Source: Candidatus Izemoplasma sp. (GTDB lineage Bacteria > Bacillota_I > Bacilli_A > Izemoplasmatales > Izemoplasmataceae). Taken from it: a DNA stretch of 39,937 nt. The notes under the pieces were generated by a model that had not been told where the DNA came from, did not search any database, and saw nothing but the letters and a program-made list of their open reading frames with translations. The translations under genes were made by a program, and so were the position numbers. Location: assembly GCA_007135105.1 (NCBI GenBank), contig SLJL01000100.1:1-39937 (forward strand), in the 5' to 3' direction. Positions 18,393-29,400 of this stretch are shown here, piece by piece (position 1 is the first letter of the stretch; the number at the start of each line of letters is the position of its first letter).

Positions 18393-19568
18393 ATGTATAA
18401 AAGAATGTTTTTGATTGTTATCGACAGCGTCGGCATCGGTGCGATGCCCGACGCCGAAGCATATGGTGATGTCGGAACGAATACCATCGTCAACATCGCC
18501 AAGCACGAAGGTGGGATTTCACTGCCGAACATGGGCAGACTCGGTTACGGCAATCTTGCCGATATCCCCGGGGTAGCCCCGGAGAAATCGCCGATCGGAA
18601 ATTACACCAAAATGGCGGAAATGAGTGTCGGTAAAGATACCATGACCGGCCATTGGGAATTGATGGGTTTGAAAATTGAAACCCCGTTTCAGACGTTCAC
18701 CGAGACAGGTTTCCCCGATGCGTTGATCAAGACGTTGGAAGAAAAAACCGGACGTAAGATCGTCGGGAACAAATCCGCCAGCGGTACGGTGATTCTCGAT
18801 GAACTCGGCGAACATCAGTTGAAGACGGGAGATTTGATTGTCTATACCTCGGCCGACAGTGTCCTGCAAATCGCGGCGCACGAAGAAAAAATCGGTCTGG
18901 ATGAACTGTATAAGGCCTGTGAGATCGCCCGGGAACTGACCATGAAAGAAGAATACAAAGTCGGTCGTGTCATCGCCCGACCGTTTATCGGCGACAAAAA
19001 AGGCGCGTTCCAAAGAACGGCGAACCGCCATGATTATGCGCTTAAACCTTATGAGGAGACCACCCTCGATTTTCTGAAAGAAGTCGGATACGATGTGATC
19101 GCCTTCGGAAAAATCAATGACATCTACGATGGGGAAGGCATTACAAAAAGCATAAAACAAGCCGATAACGATGAAGGCATGCAGAACTACATCGCGTATG
19201 CCGAAAAAGATTTCACCGGTCTTGCGTTTTTGAATCTTGTGGATTTCGACGCCAAGTATGGCCATCGTCGCAATCCGAAAGGCTACAAGGACGCCCTGGA
19301 AGCTTTTGATACACAACTCGCGGAGTTGATGCGTCACATCAAGGATGATGATCTGTTGCTGATCACAGCCGATCACGGGAATGACCCCACGCACACGGGA
19401 ACGGATCATACACGTGAATATGTGCCGCTTTTGGTCTATAACCCGAAACTCGCAGGAGGACATTTCCCGCAAAGGAAAACTTTCGCCGATGTCGGTGCAA
19501 CGATTTCCGACAATTTCAAAGTGCGTTTTCCATCACATGGGACGAGTTTCCTAAAAGACATCAAGTAA
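18393..19568 (+). CDS. deoB: Phosphopentomutase
   Basis: DeoB interconverts (deoxy)ribose 1- and 5-phosphate in nucleoside salvage. It is an alkaline-phosphatase-superfamily metalloenzyme of 391 residues. The metal ligand D11 lies in [12 protein letters not shown], the phosphorylated Thr85 in KDTMTGHWE, and the second metal site in [19 protein letters not shown]. All are intact. The ribosome site AAAGGAGA sits in the end of xerD, and the genes abut without a gap. It is last in hemW-xerD-deoB. Confidence 0.97.
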
Positions 19569-19604
19569 AAAATCGCGTTCAGGTTCTTACCTGGACGCGA
19601 TTTT
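19569..19604. terminator. Bidirectional terminator between deoB and the coiled-coil operon
   Basis: A 15-pair stem AAAATCGCGTTCAGG (19569-19583) / CCTGGACGCGATTTT (19590-19604) with one wobble pair serves both converging units. The minus-strand stop codon (19603-19605) lies at its edge. Confidence 0.9.
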
Positions 19605-22476
19605 ACTTATATTTCAAGTTGACGTTTTTCAAATGTGAACGCATCTCGGCGCTCAGTGTCTTTTTCACGGAGGCTTCACGTTTCTTTTGACTGGTCGTCA
19701 TTTTCTTCAAATACGCTTGATAGGCGTCTATGGCCGGTTTCAAGGCATCGTTCAAACTTGATTTGAGATGACTCAAAGCCTGGATGTGACCGGTGAGCTG
19801 TTCGGAAAGCAGTTTCGCCTGTTCGTCCCGCTCCTTGCGGTAGCGCTCCGCTTGTTTCTTGATCTGTTTTTTCATGCTTGTTTGAAGCATCTGGCTTGTG
19901 GTGTCATCGGTTTTCTTGTCGATGTTGTCGATTTGCTTGTTGTGGGTTTCGATGAAGTCCAATCTTTCGTTTTCGAGGTGATTGAGACCTTCAGTCAACG
20001 TTTTTTTGCGTTCAGTCATGCTGTTTTCGAAGGCTTGTTCGATGGTTTCCTTTTCAGCTTTGACTTTCTCGATCTTATCCTTGTTTTCACTACCCGTTTC
20101 GATGGCCTTACGTTTTTCTTCCAAAATCTTTAGTTGCGCTTTTGGTTCACGCACTTTTTCGGCGTATGTGCTTTTGGCTTCCTCGATGGATTCGTCCAAC
20201 CGTTCCTTGGCGGTTGTCTTTGCTTCTGATTCGATATATGGCGCCAAGGTGGCGGCATCGGAGTTGCTTTGGAACTGGTTCAGTTTATCTTCACTGCTTT
20301 GCAGCATGTGTTCAAAGGTCTCGATGCTCTTGTTCATGATTTTTTCCGCGTCATTACGTGCGTTTTCGGCCCGTTTTTTTGCTTTCTCTATCTGGGTGCG
20401 GTAGCGTTGGACGTTGCGGTCGTTTTGCTCTTTATGCGTGATGGCGTCCAGTTTGTCTTTATATTGGTCTTCGATGAGCGTCTGTTGGGCATTGAGTTCG
20501 AGTTTATCCTTTTCTTCGGTGAACAGGGCCTGTTTATAGGAGAGATCCTCGAGTTTCCGGTCCCGTTCCCTTTCCAGTTCCAAGCGGTCGGTCTTGTAAG
20601 GTTGCAGATGTTCCAGCAATTTCTCTTCGGCGTATTCGAGTTCGCGTTTCAACGCTTGGTCGATGTTTTCCAGACGCAGTTCGAATTCGCTTTGGGCATA
20701 CTTGATCTGTTGTTGGGCGAAATTGATCTGACTCTGCAAGGTGGTCGAAACCATGGTCTCATTGATGTCTTGACCCACATGAAGCCGTTCAGCCTGTGCT
20801 TTGGTCAAGGTGATCTCACTGTCGTACAATGAGTTAATCTTGAGTAACTGCAGCTCGTATTCCTTATCCGCCAGGTCGATGAGTGCGTTTTGATAGATCA
20901 TCTCGTTTTGAATGTCTTCTTCAGCGGAGAGCTGGGAGATTTCACCCCGTTTGATGATATCGGTCATTTTCTTATCGAGCGCTGCTTGTTTCTGGTGGTA
21001 GGCGATTCTGGCCGCGTGCATGTCAATCTCGGCGATAAGCTTTTCTTTGAGCGAACGGTGGTTGAAATGCTTGAGTTTGAGAGCCTTGAGAATATCGAGC
21101 TGTGCTTTTTTGAATGTCCTTTTAAGCGGTTCGATCCGGTCGGCCATTTCTGTTTGCGCTTTCAGGAAAAACGCGTGTTTGTCGAGAATGAAGGTGTGGA
21201 TGCTGTCGCTGAAGTCAAGAACACTTCGTATGAAAGTGTCATAGTCCTTCAAGGTTTTTTCCAGGGTCATTATGAAGTTTTCATTGAATGTTTTATCATG
21301 AAGCAGGGCCTGAGCGTCTTCCTTGAGCTTGAACAGTTCACTCGAATCGCTTTTGGCGATGTTTTCCTTTGCGATTTCGAACTTGAGCGCATAAAGCTTT
21401 TTGATGTAGTCTTTTTCGGTTTTGTGCTGTGCTTTCAGTATCTTGTTTTTCTCGCGTTTGACGAGATCTTCGGTCTTGCGATCGATTTTCTCGGCTTCGA
21501 GTTTCAAGTTGGCTTTTTCACGTCGTTCGTATGCTTTCAGAAGTTCTTTCAGTTTTTCGTGGTTTTGTGTTTTTTCCGCATAGATGATCTCAAGACGCAA
21601 ATTCTTTAGGTCCTGTTGGGCGGTCTGATTGAGTTTTTCTTCCTTTTCAAGTTTCTGTTTGTTTTTTGTTTTGAGTGTTTCGTAGGTATCTTCGTAGACG
21701 TTTTTGAGTTTTTCATCGAGGCTTTCGAGTTTGGATGTGAAACTTTCCTTCAATGCCTGTTCCTCATCGATGAGGTTTTGAATTCTGGTCTTGATGGTTT
21801 CGTTGATGCGGTCTTCCAGACTGACTTCGTCTTCCTTGTTTTGGAGCATATGTTTGCGTTCCTGGTAGAGTGCCTCCAAACGGTCGAAGAAGGTTTTGAA
21901 GGTGTCGTTGAAAGCCTCGACGTCTGTATTGAAGACCTTGAGCTGATCCTCTAGTCCTTTGATATCGCTGTCATCGATGGAAAAACCGGGTAGGCTTTTT
22001 TCGATGAAGTCGGATAGGAAACGATGGGTTTCTTCATTTACTTTTCGATTGTAAGGGGAGAAGAAGTTCTCATGTGACATCGTTTCTTCCAGGATGCTTA
22101 GCAGTGATTGCTTGAGTGTTTCGGCTTTGCTGGAGCTGTCCTGGTTGAGGTAGGCGTTGATGTTTTCCTTGCGCATATCCCTCAAGGCACTGAAAATGCG
22201 GTTTTTCGATTCCAGCACGTAGTTAAGTTGCTCGATGGTCGTTTCATGGTCTTTTTGGTTGATTGCTGTTTTGAGACGTTTGATGTCCGCACTTAATATC
22301 TGGAGCTTCTCCTGGGTTTCCTCCAGGCGTTTTTGATGGGATGCTTTCAGTTTCTGGTTGGCGTCGACGACTTCACTGATGAGGTTCTGTAAAAGCTTGC
22401 TTTCCTTTTGCAGATCTTCATCGATCAACGCGCTGAGGTTCTTGTTCGGTGATGTGATGTCATATTTTTTTGCCAT
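19603..22476 (-). CDS. Giant coiled-coil protein B (957 residues)
   Basis: The protein is almost entirely Glu/Lys/Gln/Leu-rich helix with heptad-like spacing. I see no Cys, no Trp, no signal peptide and no membrane segment, so it should be a cytoplasmic rod. Less charged breaks lie at about 135-205 (FFSPYNRKVNEETHR and SLPGFSIDDSD) and about 400-470 (LDFSDSIHTFILDKHAFF), which could be hinges or folded nodes. Pro-Gly content is very low elsewhere. There is no Walker motif, so it is not an SMC or RecN protein. AAAGGAG stands eight bases before the ATG. It lies 15 bases after the larger coiled-coil gene, so the two are co-transcribed. The function is unknown; a structural or cytoskeletal role is inference. 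Confidence 0.92.
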   Translation of the reverse strand: MAKKYDITSPNKNLSALIDEDLQKESKLLQNLISEVVDANQKLKASHQKRLEETQEKLQILSADIKRLKTAINQKDHETTIEQLNYVLESKNRIFSALRDMRKENINAYLNQDSSSKAETLKQSLLSILEETMSHENFFSPYNRKVNEETHRFLSDFIEKSLPGFSIDDSDIKGLEDQLKVFNTDVEAFNDTFKTFFDRLEALYQERKHMLQNKEDEVSLEDRINETIKTRIQNLIDEEQALKESFTSKLESLDEKLKNVYEDTYETLKTKNKQKLEKEEKLNQTAQQDLKNLRLEIIYAEKTQNHEKLKELLKAYERREKANLKLEAEKIDRKTEDLVKREKNKILKAQHKTEKDYIKKLYALKFEIAKENIAKSDSSELFKLKEDAQALLHDKTFNENFIMTLEKTLKDYDTFIRSVLDFSDSIHTFILDKHAFFLKAQTEMADRIEPLKRTFKKAQLDILKALKLKHFNHRSLKEKLIAEIDMHAARIAYHQKQAALDKKMTDIIKRGEISQLSAEEDIQNEMIYQNALIDLADKEYELQLLKINSLYDSEITLTKAQAERLHVGQDINETMVSTTLQSQINFAQQQIKYAQSEFELRLENIDQALKRELEYAEEKLLEHLQPYKTDRLELERERDRKLEDLSYKQALFTEEKDKLELNAQQTLIEDQYKDKLDAITHKEQNDRNVQRYRTQIEKAKKRAENARNDAEKIMNKSIETFEHMLQSSEDKLNQFQSNSDAATLAPYIESEAKTTAKERLDESIEEAKSTYAEKVREPKAQLKILEEKRKAIETGSENKDKIEKVKAEKETIEQAFENSMTERKKTLTEGLNHLENERLDFIETHNKQIDNIDKKTDDTTSQMLQTSMKKQIKKQAERYRKERDEQAKLLSEQLTGHIQALSHLKSSLNDALKPAIDAYQAYLKKMTTSQKKREASVKKTLSAEMRSHLKNVNLKYK

Positions 22477-22491
22477 GGAGGCGGCTCCTTT

Positions 22492-25400
22492 CTATTCAGT
22501 GTCGGTGATGCTTTTGATTGTTTCTGAGATGTATTGGTCGAATTGATCGCGTTCCGGTTCGAAATAGGTTTCGAGATTTTCGCTGTGGTCCGGAATGTCG
22601 AAGATGTGGTCTTTTGCGTGGTGTCGCAAGGATTCCTTGAGAGTCTCGTGCATGTTGTCGAAGGCATCATAAAGCTGGTATTCTTTTTCGTTGATGGTAT
22701 CGATCAAATGTTTCATCCGGGTTGATTTGATGCGGACTTCATCATCCAGCGATCGGATTGCCGTTTCAATCTGGCTTTCGAGCCGGGCTTTCGAGGTAAG
22801 AATCTGTTCCTCGTAATCTTCCAGTTTCTGTTTGAGATTGACGTTTTCCTTTTCCAGCGCTTTTTTTGTCTCCGCTTTCATCATTGAGATCTTTTCGTGT
22901 TGGGTCTGGTAGATGTAATCGTATTGTTCCTGGGCGCTGTCCATTTTTTCCTGGAAGATCTGTTCGATATCCATATCGGCTTTTTCGATGTTGGAAACGG
23001 CGTAATTGTAGATGCTTTGTGCGTCTTCGAGCCGTGCTTTGATTTTCTCTTCGCGTTCGGTATACCGTTTGAGCATGTTGCTACGTTTGTGGTCGTAGTT
23101 TTCTTCGATGGTATTGATCATCAGCTCAAGATCGTGCTGTAACTCCTCCTCGGCATCATTCAGTTTCTGGAGAATGGTTTCCAGCTGACCCTGCAAAGAT
23201 TGAATGGATGTTTCGATGTCGCTGGCTTCGCTGCTGAGCTGTGAGAGTTGTTCGGCACGTTTTTCCGTGAAGGATTCTTCGAGATTTTCAAAATCATCCT
23301 GGTGTTTTTCATCCAGACCTTCGCGTTGGATCTCGAGTGGTTTCATGGCTTCCTTGTAGCGGTCGTTTTCTTTTTCAATCGCTTGTAGACGCGAATGTTT
23401 CGCTTTGTCGAGTAGGGTGGCGTCGGTATGGTATAGCGGTTCGAAAACAGTCTCTATCGTGGTTTTGGTGCTTTCGAAGTGAGCCTTTATTTCTGCGATG
23501 AGCAGCTTGGCTGTCTCCTGGACATGCCTTTGTAAGGTTGCCAGTTGCATGGAGTTTTTCTTCTTCAAGGTCTCAAGCGGTTTTTTCAGTGTTTCGTCGA
23601 TGCGCTTGATGCGTGCTTCCAACGCGTTGTCCAACTGTTGTTTCTGCCGCCGGTATTTTTGTTCGAGTTTTTGTTTGGCGGTATTTTTCTTTTTCTGATT
23701 TTCCATTGAATCCAGTTCGGATAATTCGAGATCATAGGCGAATGTGTGACTTTCTTCCATGGTCTTCGTCGCATCTGTGAGGAAGTCCTTGACTTCGTTT
23801 TTGAATGGACGGGTTAGAATCGGCAACAGGTCTTTGAGTTCAAGGTCGACTTGCTTGGTCTGCTTAAGAAAGTTTCTCAGGTCGCCGAGCAGCGAACCAT
23901 AAGCTGTTTTTACCGGGTTCAACCGGGCGTTGATCATGCTTTTGATTTCGTCGATGTTGGTTTTGGCTTTTTCGCTTTCGCGCTTGAAGGCTTGTTCGAT
24001 GAATTCTATTTGTTTTTCATGCCGTTCCTTTTCATCGTCGATTTTCTGTTCCAGTCGTTTGACTTCCTTGTTGTGGTTGTTTTCCAAGAGTTCTTTTTGT
24101 CGCGTTTCTTGTTGGTTCAGGACCGCCTCGATCTTGTTGATGCGGACATTCAGTCTTTCCAGATTGCGCTTGCGTTCGGAAATCATGAGTTCCAGACGGG
24201 TGTTTTCCTGTTTTTCGCTTTCACGTTGTTCTTCTTGATTGAGTCTTAGACGCTTTTCGGTTTCAAGAATCTCGATTTTCTTTTCCAGTTCAAGGATTTT
24301 AAGATCGAGTTTCTTGCGCTCCGCTAGCTGGTTCTGGTCTGTTTCGACATGGTTTTTCCGTAAGGTATAGATGAGCTTGGCCATCTTTTTTTCTTCATCG
24401 AGCGCGTTACGCTCACGTACGGCTTCCATCTCGGATTTTATGTTCTTAAGTGCTTGTTTCTCTTTTTCCAGATCGATGGTGAAAAGACAGTTGCTTTCGT
24501 TTAGTGTCTGGTCGTACTCCAGTGTCGCCAAGGTCTTTTCATGGTTTTTTTGTCTCAAGGTCATCTCGTGACGTAAAGCGGCGTCTTTTTTCTCGACCTC
24601 GATTTTTTCCTTATGGACCTTGATTTCTTTGAGCGCTTCCTTGGTATCCAAAAAAGCCCGCAGGTCATCGGCCTCTTCATAGAGCGGTCGCAGTGCGGTG
24701 GTTGATGTATATAGGGTGCTCAGTCGTTTTTGCTCGAAAGCGAGCAAGGTTTTGAGCACGTCGTGAATCAGAGCCTTGATCTGTTCGAAGTGTTTGGTCG
24801 GGTTGCTGTCCTCGAGAAGTTTTTTAAGCAAATCTTCCCGGTTGGGATTTGCCTGCTGGAAAATGTCGAACCGTTTCTTGATGAGACTTTGGTGTAAAGT
24901 GACGTGTTTCTCGATGTCTTCAAAAGTATTTTTAAGCCCGCCAAGCGTGTGTTCGGCAACGGTTTTAAGTGCACTGGTTGCTTCGATCAAGCCTTTTTCA
25001 ACGGTAACAGCATGATTTTTCAGCGCGGTTTGCCGGATTTTGTTGAGTTCGAGCTGTTTTTTCATGGACGTCTGGTAGGTTTCATCGCCTTCGTGCTCAT
25101 TCATGAGTCTTTCCAAACGTGCGGATTCGGAGTCGACGTCCTGGTCTACGGCTTCTAAGAAGGTCTTGTGCTTGTGCCTGATGTTCTTCTCGATAAGCGA
25201 AAGTTCGCTTTTCAGCCGTTCAAACGGTTCGTTCAACCGACTACCGAGCTGATAGAGGTGTTTACTCAATGCTTTGGACGCGTCATTGATCGTTTTTCGC
25301 AAATTGTTGATTTGATGGTCGAGTCTGTTTCTTTCCTCTTTCAGTTTATGTTCTACGGACGCCTTGTCGGTTTTAAAACGGCTGATGAGCATGTCGAAAT

Positions 25401-25983
25401 CATCATTCAATGCTTTTTCAAGGGTGTTCAACCGTTGTTTTTCACTTTCATGTCTATCCTGAACGGATTTCAAGAGCGCGTCCATGTCTTTTTTGATGGC
25501 TTCCTTGTTTTTCTGAAGCGTTTCTTCATGTAAATCGATCTTGTCTTGATAGGCTTTGGTGTTTTTACGGTGTTTCTCATCGATGTCGGTAAGGATTTTG
25601 TCCTTTTCCTTCGTTGCCTTTTTGATTGCGTTCGTCAGTTGTCTGATTTCGTTTTTGTGGTCACTTTTGAGTTGGGAAGTCTTTTCCTGATGGTGCTGTT
25701 TCAAGGTCTCGATGCGTTTTTCCTGTGTTCGGAGGCTCTCTTCGTATTGTTTTTGTGTGCTTCTTGTGGTTTTCAAGTGTTTTTTCTGTAATTCGTTCAA
25801 AGCCTTCTGGTGGGCTTGTTCGTTTTCTTCAAAAGCTTTTTGGGCACGAGAAAGGATATCATCGTAACGCTTCTTGAGCGCGATGATATTTTTCTGGTAC
25901 GGCTCGATTTGCTTTTGCATGTCTTTTTCTATGGTATAAAGCGATTTTTCCAAGGTGGATGGCTTTGGCTTCTTACCGACCAT
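22492..25983 (-). CDS. Giant coiled-coil protein A (about 1163 residues)
   Basis: First gene of the minus-strand pair. It is a long, highly charged alpha-helical protein with no Trp, a single Cys (C499), and no membrane segment or signal peptide. Helix-breaking nodes stand at about 370-440 (QQANPNRED, SNPTKHF, ALRPLYEE) and 688-730 (LNPVKTAYGSLLG, LLPILTRPF), dividing it into three rods of roughly 330, 250 and 430 residues. The tail is acidic and less coiled (IPDHSENLETYFEPER). There is no ATP-binding motif. The open frame begins at TTG 26004, but GAGGAGGG fits the ATG at 25983 with normal spacing. I do not recognise the family. The function is unknown. Confidence 0.92.
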   Translation of the reverse strand: MVGKKPKPSTLEKSLYTIEKDMQKQIEPYQKNIIALKKRYDDILSRAQKAFEENEQAHQKALNELQKKHLKTTRSTQKQYEESLRTQEKRIETLKQHHQEKTSQLKSDHKNEIRQLTNAIKKATKEKDKILTDIDEKHRKNTKAYQDKIDLHEETLQKNKEAIKKDMDALLKSVQDRHESEKQRLNTLEKALNDDFDMLISRFKTDKASVEHKLKEERNRLDHQINNLRKTINDASKALSKHLYQLGSRLNEPFERLKSELSLIEKNIRHKHKTFLEAVDQDVDSESARLERLMNEHEGDETYQTSMKKQLELNKIRQTALKNHAVTVEKGLIEATSALKTVAEHTLGGLKNTFEDIEKHVTLHQSLIKKRFDIFQQANPNREDLLKKLLEDSNPTKHFEQIKALIHDVLKTLLAFEQKRLSTLYTSTTALRPLYEEADDLRAFLDTKEALKEIKVHKEKIEVEKKDAALRHEMTLRQKNHEKTLATLEYDQTLNESNCLFTIDLEKEKQALKNIKSEMEAVRERNALDEEKKMAKLIYTLRKNHVETDQNQLAERKKLDLKILELEKKIEILETEKRLRLNQEEQRESEKQENTRLELMISERKRNLERLNVRINKIEAVLNQQETRQKELLENNHNKEVKRLEQKIDDEKERHEKQIEFIEQAFKRESEKAKTNIDEIKSMINARLNPVKTAYGSLLGDLRNFLKQTKQVDLELKDLLPILTRPFKNEVKDFLTDATKTMEESHTFAYDLELSELDSMENQKKKNTAKQKLEQKYRRQKQQLDNALEARIKRIDETLKKPLETLKKKNSMQLATLQRHVQETAKLLIAEIKAHFESTKTTIETVFEPLYHTDATLLDKAKHSRLQAIEKENDRYKEAMKPLEIQREGLDEKHQDDFENLEESFTEKRAEQLSQLSSEASDIETSIQSLQGQLETILQKLNDAEEELQHDLELMINTIEENYDHKRSNMLKRYTEREEKIKARLEDAQSIYNYAVSNIEKADMDIEQIFQEKMDSAQEQYDYIYQTQHEKISMMKAETKKALEKENVNLKQKLEDYEEQILTSKARLESQIETAIRSLDDEVRIKSTRMKHLIDTINEKEYQLYDAFDNMHETLKESLRHHAKDHIFDIPDHSENLETYFEPERDQFDQYISETIKSITDTE

Positions 25984-26031
25984 TACGTACCCTCCTCGAG
26001 TCAATGTTGTAAGCGATTTACACTTATAATC

Positions 26032-26060
26032 ATTTTATCATAAGCATGACCATAAAACAA
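26032..26060 (-). promoter_or_regulatory. Promoter of the coiled-coil operon
   Basis: Read on the minus strand, TTGTTT (26060-26055) and TAAAAT (26037-26032) are separated by 17 bases, about 50 bases before the start of protein A. It diverges from the ruvB promoter. Confidence 0.55.
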
Positions 26061-26091: not shown

Positions 26092-26119
26092 TTGTAAAAG
26101 AGTGGCGATTGTGTATAAT
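26092..26119 (+). promoter_or_regulatory. Promoter of ruvB-queA
   Basis: TTGTAA at 26092-26097 is separated by 16 bases from TATAAT at 26114-26119, which is 23 bases before the ruvB start. Confidence 0.65.
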
Positions 26120-26142
26120 TTTTATTGAAAGTGGGTGTCATC

Positions 26143-27156
26143 ATGGATGAGAATATGTTGAGTGGTGAAAAACTAAGGGATGATGTCGAACAAATAGAGC
26201 TTCGACCGAAGTATCTCGATGAATATATCGGCCAGACGCACGTAAAAGAGATGATGCGTATTTTTATCACGGCCGCCAAAAACAGAAATGAAAGTCTCGA
26301 CCATGTGCTTCTTTATGGTCCACCGGGTCTGGGGAAGACGACGTTGGCCAACATCGTGGCCAATGAGATCGGTGTTTCCATCAAGGTTGCCAGTGGTCCC
26401 TCGATCGAGAAAAGCGGCGATCTGGCTGTGTTGCTTACTTCCTTGGAACCCGGCGATATTCTTTTCATCGATGAAATCCACAGGTTGCCGCGGGTGGTGG
26501 AAGAAGTGCTTTATCCGGCCATGGAGGATTTTGCCATCGATCTGATTGTCGGAAAAGATGAGACATCGAAATCCATAAGAGTCGATTTACCACCGTTCAC
26601 CTTGATCGGGGCGACCACACGTTACGGCGATCTGACCGCACCGCTTCGAGATCGTTTCGGTGTGGTGCACAAGTTGGAATACTATGATATCGATGCGCTC
26701 GAGCAGATCTGCCGGCGTACGGCAAAGATATACGAGGCCGACATCGAGGAACAAAGCGTGAAAGAACTGGCGAAAAGGAGCCGGGGAACACCGAGAATCG
26801 TCAACCGTCTGTTCAGACGTATCCGTGATTTTGCGGATGTCTTGAACGATGGCATCATCGATCTTGCCATCACGAAACTGGCGCTTGAAAAACTGCAGAT
26901 CGATGAAATGGGTCTCGATCAGAAGGATCACGACTATTTGAACGGTTTGATCGACAATTACGGTGGTGGTCCGGTCGGGGTCGAATCGCTGGCTTCATCC
27001 ATCAGTGAGGAAGTGACAACGATCGAGGACGTCTATGAACCGTATCTGATGAAGCTCGGTTTCGTCAAACGCACACCAAGGGGAAGACAAGCGACGGAAA
27101 AAGCCTATAAGCACTTGAAGAAATCCTATCAAAGCGGTTTGTTCAATGAAAACTAG
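26143..27156 (+). CDS. ruvB: Holliday junction branch migration ATPase RuvB
   Basis: RuvB is the hexameric motor that drives Holliday junction migration with RuvA. The 337 residues carry Walker A GPPGLGKT (59-66), Walker B FIDEIHR, sensor [18 protein letters not shown], and a C-terminal winged-helix DNA-binding domain ending [13 protein letters not shown]. The open frame starts at TTG 26125. I use ATG 26143, which follows an imperfect AAGTGGGTG ribosome site. ruvA, the usual upstream partner, is not here; its place is taken by the divergent coiled-coil operon. It overlaps queA by 11 bases. Confidence 0.97.
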
Positions 27157-28211: not shown

Positions 28212-28592
28212 CTATTCGATATAGATCTGAACCGTATCGCCATCACCGGATTCGATGTCGACGATTTTGCCGTCTGTGCCCTGTTCGATCAAATCGAGAA
28301 TCTGGTCGAAATCGATATCGACATCCATGTTGGCCATTTTCTTGTTCAGATTGGGAATGCCTTTCTTGCTTCTCAAGGCAACTTTGGCGAATTCAAGAGG
28401 TATTTGAACATTGACCTTATCGCCATCGCCACTCTGAATCCGGATTTTGAACATTTTGAAAGCTTCTTTTTTCGCCACTTTCGGTGCGGATTGCTTATCG
28501 GCGTCCACGGCTTTCAAAAGCTCGGCACCTTCTTGTGGTGAAATGACCTGGTTCTGGATCATTTCCAGAATTTTGAGTTTTTCCTGGCTCAT
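28212..28592 (-). CDS. SHOCT-like / YvlB-type small protein
   Basis: A 126-residue soluble protein. The N-terminus (KILEMIQNQVISPQEGAELL) is a SHOCT-like helical hairpin of the type found at the start of YvlB-like envelope stress proteins. It is followed by a strand IRIQSGDGDKVNVQIPLEFA, an Asp-rich helix, and a C-terminal GKIVDIESGDGDTVQIYIE strand pair. It is paralogous to the protein encoded at 28984-29346, in particular at the C-terminus. It is third in the operon, four bases after the DUF2089 gene. The function is unknown. The operon suggests it works with the DUF2089 regulator. Confidence 0.85.
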   Translation of the reverse strand: MSQEKLKILEMIQNQVISPQEGAELLKAVDADKQSAPKVAKKEAFKMFKIRIQSGDGDKVNVQIPLEFAKVALRSKKGIPNLNKKMANMDVDIDFDQILDLIEQGTDGKIVDIESGDGDTVQIYIE

Positions 28593-28596
28593 ACAC

Positions 28597-28971
28597 TCAC
28601 TCTCCCAACATCTTCAAGGCTTCTTCACTGCTGATTTCGCCTTTAGACAGTTTTTCGAGAATGGCATCGCGGTCTTTCTCATCCATGTGGTCCTCTTCAT
28701 CCTCGACGCTGTAACCGAGACTTTGCGTTACTTCATTCAACAGTTTCTTAACCGTTGGATAGGATACATTCAGTTCTTTTTCCAGCTTCTTGATTGAACC
28801 CTTGTTTTTGATGAAAAGCTCGATGAAATAAAGATGGTCCTTTGACAGGTAATTGAATTTCGACAGCTGGAATTTCCCACTGATCTCCGTATGACAGTTG
28901 GTGCACTCCAGTTTTGTGACGAGCAAGTCGTGCTTGCAGATCGGGCATTCGCCAATGACGTGTTTTTGCAT
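28597..28971 (-). CDS. DUF2089 family zinc-ribbon/HTH putative regulator
   Basis: A 124-residue protein with an N-terminal zinc ribbon (CPIC at C9/C12 and CTNC at C23/C26), then a helix-turn-helix-like region (KLEKELNVSYPTVKKLLNEV), and a C-terminal SHOCT-like helix pair (ILEKLSKGEISSEEALKML). This is the layout of DUF2089 proteins from Bacillota, presumed DNA-binding regulators. TAGGAGG overlaps the stop of the upstream gene and stands eight bases before the ATG. Its C-terminal motif is shared with both neighbours in the operon, which suggests the three proteins contact one another or a common partner. Confidence 0.88.
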   Translation of the reverse strand: MQKHVIGECPICKHDLLVTKLECTNCHTEISGKFQLSKFNYLSKDHLYFIELFIKNKGSIKKLEKELNVSYPTVKKLLNEVTQSLGYSVEDEEDHMDEKDRDAILEKLSKGEISSEEALKMLGE

Positions 28972-28983
28972 ACATACAACCTC

Positions 28984-29346
28984 CTAATCGATTCTAATGC
29001 TGATGATGGCATCATCGCTGATGATGTTCACTTTCGTACCACGGGCGTATCTTAAAAGTTGCCGCAATTCCTCGAGTGATATCTCATCATCGACTTTTTC
29101 CGGTATTTTTATGAAACGGGTCGCGAAACCGATAAGGCCGACCGGTAAAGGAAACATGAACAGGATCCTTAAAAATGTGTTCAATGCTTTTGACTCCTCG
29201 GGAAGATACATTCGTAGCCGCAGGTACCTAGCGCGTTTCAATTTGCTTGGTGGATGCATTTCTGCGGGCGGATACAATTTCTCGTAGGCTTCCTGGGCAC
29301 TTAAGCGCCCTTCTTGAACGGCAGAAAGAATTTCTGATTCAGGCAT
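28984..29346 (-). CDS. SHOCT-like small protein with a hydrophobic segment
   Basis: About 120 residues. It starts with a SHOCT-like hairpin (ILSAVQEGRLSAQEAYEKL), continues with a basic stretch and strand ARYLRLRMYLPEES, then a hydrophobic span around FLRILFMFPLPVGLIGF that may insert in or lie on the membrane, and ends GTKVNIISDDAIISIRID. That ending parallels the C-terminus of the third protein in the operon. The upstream ATG at 29364 is poorly placed; GAGGTGG fits the ATG at 29346. It is the first gene after a strong promoter. The function is unknown. Confidence 0.82.
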   Translation of the reverse strand: MPESEILSAVQEGRLSAQEAYEKLYPPAEMHPPSKLKRARYLRLRMYLPEESKALNTFLRILFMFPLPVGLIGFATRFIKIPEKVDDEISLEELRQLLRYARGTKVNIISDDAIISIRID

Positions 29347-29400
29347 TTTGCCACCTCGTTCCATGCTCGATGTGATGTTTTTAATTGTCTTGTGCTTTTA

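Follow-up and report, generated by a model that had tools for sequence, protein, structure and literature searches.

What work two adjacent genes for giant, almost wholly helical proteins might do beside ruvB in a bacterium without a cell wall is the question raised by this locus. The window, meaning the whole stretch of 39,937 nucleotides that was analysed, was read with the standard bacterial code and comes from contig C14 of a Candidatus Izemoplasma sp. assembly (1.2 Mb, 127 contigs in total). The reading favoured here is that the products of the two genes, A and B, may together make up a single structural scaffold in the cytoplasm of the wall-less Izemoplasmatales, each supplying one subunit, a proposal to which we give an even chance of being right. 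Joint action of A and B is much safer ground than any statement about where or how they act.

The pair lies on the minus strand, flanked by deoB (18393-19568, +) and ruvB (26125-27156, +), with B upstream, A downstream and a gap of 15 bp between them. The first-pass annotation had described two consecutive minus-strand genes of 957 and about 1163 residues beside ruvB, and its coordinates were right in essentials (Table 1). The preferred start of B is the ATG behind GAGGAGGG; an alternative TTG at 26004 would add seven residues. By their sequences, the ribosome-binding sites of both genes appear good. The same annotation gave the pair one promoter and one terminator. The terminator is plausible, as the 16-bp stem at 19569-19604 is probably common to deoB and A, whereas the single promoter likely shared by B and A is judged from spacing, promoter-like matches in the region being at chance level (6 found, 5.7 expected). 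Elsewhere in the window, three small minus-strand genes (28212-29364) sit between queA and an hgdC-like gene, two of them with DUF2089/SHOCT-like domains, and similar-sized small genes recur at this position in many genomes of the same family, f1.

Table 1. Features of the A-B locus, with positions in the window
Feature	Position	Strand	Basis
Gene A, predicted all-helical rod protein, 957 aa	19603..22476	-	ORF; homologues; dN/dS
Gene B, predicted all-helical rod protein, 1163 aa	22492..25983	-	ORF; profile matches; f2 orthologues
GAGGAGGG, predicted ribosome-binding site of B	25990..25997	-	sequence
AAGGAG, predicted ribosome-binding site of A, within the 15-bp B-A gap	22485..22490	-	sequence
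Stem-loop, 16-bp stem, between deoB and A stop codons, overlaps A stop codon	19569..19604		sequence
Promoter-like site of ruvB, TTGTAA-16-TATAAT, divergent from B	26092..26119	+	consensus match only
A node, residues 558-578	20743..20805	-	Pro/Gly position conservation
A nodes, residues 734-756 and 768-788	20113..20277	-	Pro/Gly position conservation
B node, residues 243-263	25195..25257	-	Pro/Gly position conservation
B nodes, residues 698-730	23794..23892	-	Pro/Gly position conservation
Most conserved core of A, residues about 515-620	20617..20934	-	conservation
Conserved N-terminal region of A, residues 1-100	22177..22476	-	conservation
Conserved segment of B, residues 421-480, near-invariant D439	24544..24723	-	conservation

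The first-pass annotation allowed that the pair might prove confined to one strain; it is instead carried by 25 of the 28 genus-level groups (g1-g28) of the order Izemoplasmatales. The exceptions are g4, which has a shortened B only, g13, which has lost the pair, and g15, a single genome, 67 % complete, that gave no match. A profile search of 71 genomes of the order found A in 57 and B in 57. By family, A was detected in 31 of 37 genomes of f1, which includes the window genome and G072, and in 26 of 27 genomes of f3, which includes G028; the figures for B were 33/37 and 24/27. Incomplete assembly accounts for many of the missing cases: no intact ruvB match was obtained from G053, G067 or G069 either, and the sequence of G022 stops inside B. 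Both genes were found in G072 and G028, putatively the cultured Xianfuyuplasma coldseepsis zrk13 and Hujiaoplasma nucleasis zrk29. The first A and B profiles found nothing in genomes of f2, four of which carry two adjacent helical genes (1108-1129 aa and 931-971 aa) that adjoin ruvB in one genome and lie a few genes away in three. In HMM-HMM comparison, these genes match collinearly (A-A, E=1.5e-14; B-B, E=1e-8), and they are taken as orthologues because those matches are far stronger than the controls, i.e., reversed profiles (0.09 and 0.03) and cross matches (0.15 for A with f2 B, 5e-4 for B with f2 A). The order B then A, with the genes adjacent, holds in 47 of 47 intact loci examined (43 from f1 and f3 with both ORFs intact, plus the four from f2). 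Apparent natural losses occur as well. Within G017 (C235, L258:2246-2258), deoB stands 11 bp from ruvB with no pair between; in G063 (C81, L186), a 462-aa gene occupies the pair's place; and in G008 (C91, L184:7680-9788), B is shortened to 702 aa and A is absent. Since two genomes thus lack the pair and a third keeps only a shortened B, the pair is dispensable.

Beyond the order, a profile that included the f2 sequences found no convincing homologue in 392 genomes across the phylum, and a scan with RuvB as the query returned only more distant relatives. The A profile also gave weak C-terminal matches in other members of the class, which seem to be chance resemblances between helices. The order-wide pattern is one of vertical inheritance, and its simplest account is that the pair dates back to the ancestor of Izemoplasmatales or earlier. 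As a separate observation, two Anaeroplasmataceae contigs bear a single charged helical gene of 1067 or 1160 aa (L084:5665-8868(-) and L090:4772-8254(-)), which lies upstream of ruvA-ruvB in divergent orientation, one or two small genes away, and has a period of 3.62-3.64; its profile comparison with A and B was non-significant.

Across the family, lengths are held nearly constant (A, 966 +/- 21 aa; B, 1168 +/- 26 aa; CV 2.2 % over 53 A and 49 B sequences), even though sequence identity with the window proteins drops as low as 10-17 %. The ratio dN/dS is 0.04-0.13 for A and 0.04-0.14 for A and B together, the two pairs of genomes that have diverged least giving 0.04-0.08 and the values up to 0.14 lying near synonymous saturation; such ratios indicate that both proteins are under purifying selection. 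Tree lengths of 18-22, against 3.7-6.5 for RuvB, QueA, DeoB and XerD, mean that A and B change some three to six times faster. After correction for the mean of five neighbouring enzymes, A and B show a correlation of 0.81 between their residual branch rates, which stays within 0.80-0.85 when only f1, terminal, internal or short branches are used, whereas the highest value among the other 20 pairs of the seven genes is 0.44, or 0.51 in any subset. This covariation supports the view that A and B form one functional unit, but it falls short of proving contact and could arise partly from both being the same fast-evolving type of protein, the controls being five neighbouring enzymes only. The two speed up jointly and strongly on the branches to L058 (G018) and L055 (G010) when set against the neighbouring enzymes. 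No claim of paralogy is made: the two profiles align with each other at E=1e-10, but B aligns with its own reversed profile at 2e-14, and the resemblance may be one of composition.

The same data bear on the idea that the pair is kept beside ruvB for a function, as an accessory to RuvB or to recombination, which we regard as improbable. It draws on the adjacency to ruvB in f1 and f3 and on a modest rate correlation with RuvB (0.43-0.44). Yet other genes intervene in the three f2 genomes, genomes without the pair keep ruvB, and the pair forms a separate unit on the opposite strand. The pair does stand where ruvA would be expected, as the first-pass annotation remarked, but it is no replacement, for ruvA is located elsewhere in 18 of 18 genomes tested.

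As to what kind of proteins these are, searches of Pfam, NCBIfam and PHROG gave no fitting family for A or B, and neither a catalytic family nor an NTPase motif was found. The absence of a nucleotide-binding motif and of a membrane span, both reported in the first reading, was borne out: neither protein has a Walker A motif, and the top 19-residue Kyte-Doolittle means are 0.62 (A) and 0.73 (B). Family searches and hydropathy, used here in place of a dedicated signal-peptide predictor, gave no sign of a signal sequence in either. The lack of Trp, and the single Cys, located in B, are true of the window proteins but are not a family trait, homologues having a median of 1 Trp and 1 Cys and up to 6 Trp. 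Long helical proteins in general might bring to mind a secreted adhesin or a phage tape-measure protein, either of which the first reading said would undo its proposal. This we consider scarcely credible, given no membrane span, no PHROG match and housekeeping neighbours in every genome examined, and it is contradicted by the conserved synteny and order-wide vertical inheritance.

The geometry of the helices sets A and B apart from classical coiled coils. All 53 A and all 49 B sequences show a stronger hydrophobic periodicity at 3.62 residues than at 3.5, while SMC coils from related genomes, treated by the same method, peak at 3.50. Periods of 3.6-3.67 correspond to a mixed heptad-hendecad, nearly untwisted packing of helices. 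The 3.62 period suggests that A and B are straight rods; they are helical, but the coiled coil of the earlier reading is not supported in the heptad sense. Single-sequence AlphaFold models are helical throughout, with breaks, but at low confidence (mean pLDDT 48 and 52), and their Foldseek matches were set aside for that reason. Profile matches among PDB sequences were to designed helices (A) and mainly to apolipoproteins (B), and are best read as matches of amphipathic pattern.

A stripe of this kind would also let helices lie on a membrane, in the manner of apolipoproteins or of PspA/Vipp1-like coats. This membrane-surface reading, which we judge unlikely, draws on a period between 18/5 and 11/3 and on B-profile matches (best E=8.8e-8) to the PDB sequences of apolipoproteins A-IV and A-I. 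The likeness to these 11-residue-repeat helices lies in the stripe, near 3.6-3.67, and in a weak profile match over B residues 115-400, which covers a generic amphipathic pattern. In A and B, however, the polar-nonpolar border is not enriched in Lys/Arg, Glu/Asp also lie outside the polar centre, and the hydrophobic moment resembles that of SMC coils; charge layout and moment thus differ from those of class-A helices, and an apolipoprotein relationship was rejected as generic amphipathicity. There was, moreover, no PspA match in Pfam, and Vipp1/PspA entered the Foldseek list for the low-confidence B model at no better than E about 0.6.

The nodes that were said to break the rods were confirmed: in 31 diverged homologues, Pro/Gly residues fall at shared positions far more than in shifted controls, with a variance of 0.044 for A (null maximum, 0.011) and 0.036 for B (0.010). 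The core of A contains the near-invariant residues E539, L550, E554, Q561, R564, T579, Q583, Q590, E597 and R601; to judge from its sequence, it is probably a helix pair around a putative turn near G568, and residues 515-620 may be the likeliest interaction site.

The cellular setting accords with the two-part intracellular rod system of a wall-less lineage put forward in the first-pass annotation. The transpeptidase PF00905 was found in 0/18 relatives versus 10/14 control genomes, and the cultured strains are wall-less cocci of 300-800 nm (zrk13; PMC8397711) and 300-500 nm (zrk29; PMC10470597). Three tandem MreB genes occur in six pair-bearing genomes (G013, G072, G074, G015, G021, G011), and the window genome and those tested from f2 and f3 yielded none; as the pair is found both with three MreB copies and with none, a role as MreB substitute was rejected. 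Weaker MreB matches in frames of about 600 aa are, by frame length and score, probably DnaK.

The first reading also floated a chromosome scaffold. As a nucleoid organiser, the pair would supply rods that bridge the chromosome or fence it in, canonical SMC having been lost from the lineage, and this too seems unlikely to us. Canonical SMC above the TIGR02168 cut-off is undetected in all 24 genomes of the order searched, complete ones included, although eight other members of the class score above it; the SMC hinge PF06470 appears in 1 of 18 genomes, and B is about as long as an SMC. But SMC is also undetected in five genomes outside the order in which no pair was found (G076, G088, G080, G078, G083), and a role as SMC substitute was rejected as non-specific. 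Some pair-bearing genomes, moreover, have a JetABC/Mks-type condensin, a JetC/MksB-type SMC occurring in several f2 genomes and in G028, with a JetB/MksE-like gene adjoining in the two examined. Most homologues are acidic, with net charge down to -43 (one B is basic). For all their likeness to SMC/MukB-type condensins in length and long helices, A and B have no ATPase heads, no hinge, no known DNA-binding motif and another helical period, and Pfam scans of their homologues gave no SMC_N, hinge or other SMC match. Several other candidates were set aside: proteins of about 1080 aa, at first suspected of being headless SMCs, resemble JetC/MksB and have intact ATPase motifs, the 1075-aa frame of G008 resembles SbcC, and PADLOC matches to ZorA and Csm3 are weak and confined to helical stretches.

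Two known kinds of cytoskeletal protein invite closer comparison. IF-like rod proteins are defined by a coiled-coil rod of >80 residues in one block or with short interruptions, by the lack of a signal sequence, membrane span, enzymatic or other known domain, and by nucleotide-independent filament assembly and cytoskeletal function (PMC2680258). A and B show none of the excluded features and are helix-dominated with conserved nodes, but with a period of 3.62 rather than the heptad 3.5. They resemble crescentin, FilP and relatives (PMC10873595, PMC2680258) in their segmented helical rod of >80 residues, absence of another domain, fast sequence change and presumed cytoskeletal role, and differ in being longer, a fixed pair, of another period and of a separate sequence family; no credible match to the crescentin/FilP families was found in Pfam, NCBIfam or PDB sequences. 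HMW2 of Mycoplasma pneumoniae is a single protein of 1818 aa, part of the attachment organelle, whose rod length sets the length of the cytoskeletal core (PMC8191905). Like HMW2, which belongs to a wall-less relative, A and B are giant helical proteins; unlike it, they are two, and Izemoplasmatales strains are described as free-living cocci. The NCBIfam and Pfam models, whether or not one of HMW2 is among them, gave no match pointing to kinship with it. A literature search, within the papers and terms it covered, found no report linking Izemoplasmatales with such rod proteins.

The structural scaffold, then, would consist of two nearly all-helical, largely straight rods, each jointed at fixed nodes. 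At full extension they would reach at most about 145 nm (A) and 175 nm (B), in cells 300-800 nm wide. Constant length and joint positions, together with a drifting surface sequence, are what is expected of struts or rulers whose geometry matters, and A and B may be such. A would bind B, the two would polymerise or cross-link, and the rods would lie beneath the membrane or span the cytoplasm, giving mechanical support or spacing. If the proposal is right, the scaffold would work like IF-like rods or the HMW2 ruler, without sequence kinship to known families. A fuller version, in which obligate partner rods of straight, hendecad-rich helices co-assemble into a two-component cytoskeleton that sets internal dimensions and evolved once in the Izemoplasmatales ancestor, is offered more tentatively, as a possibility on the doubtful side. 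Such a pair bears on how free-living wall-less bacteria keep their shape and divide, about which little is known outside Mycoplasma and Spiroplasma. A co-evolving, vertically inherited pair of giant rods offers two named genes to test, in the cultured deep-sea isolates zrk13 and zrk29, and sister lineages with natural loss of the pair are available for comparison. More broadly, A and B represent a non-heptad type of rod that standard coiled-coil surveys may undercall.
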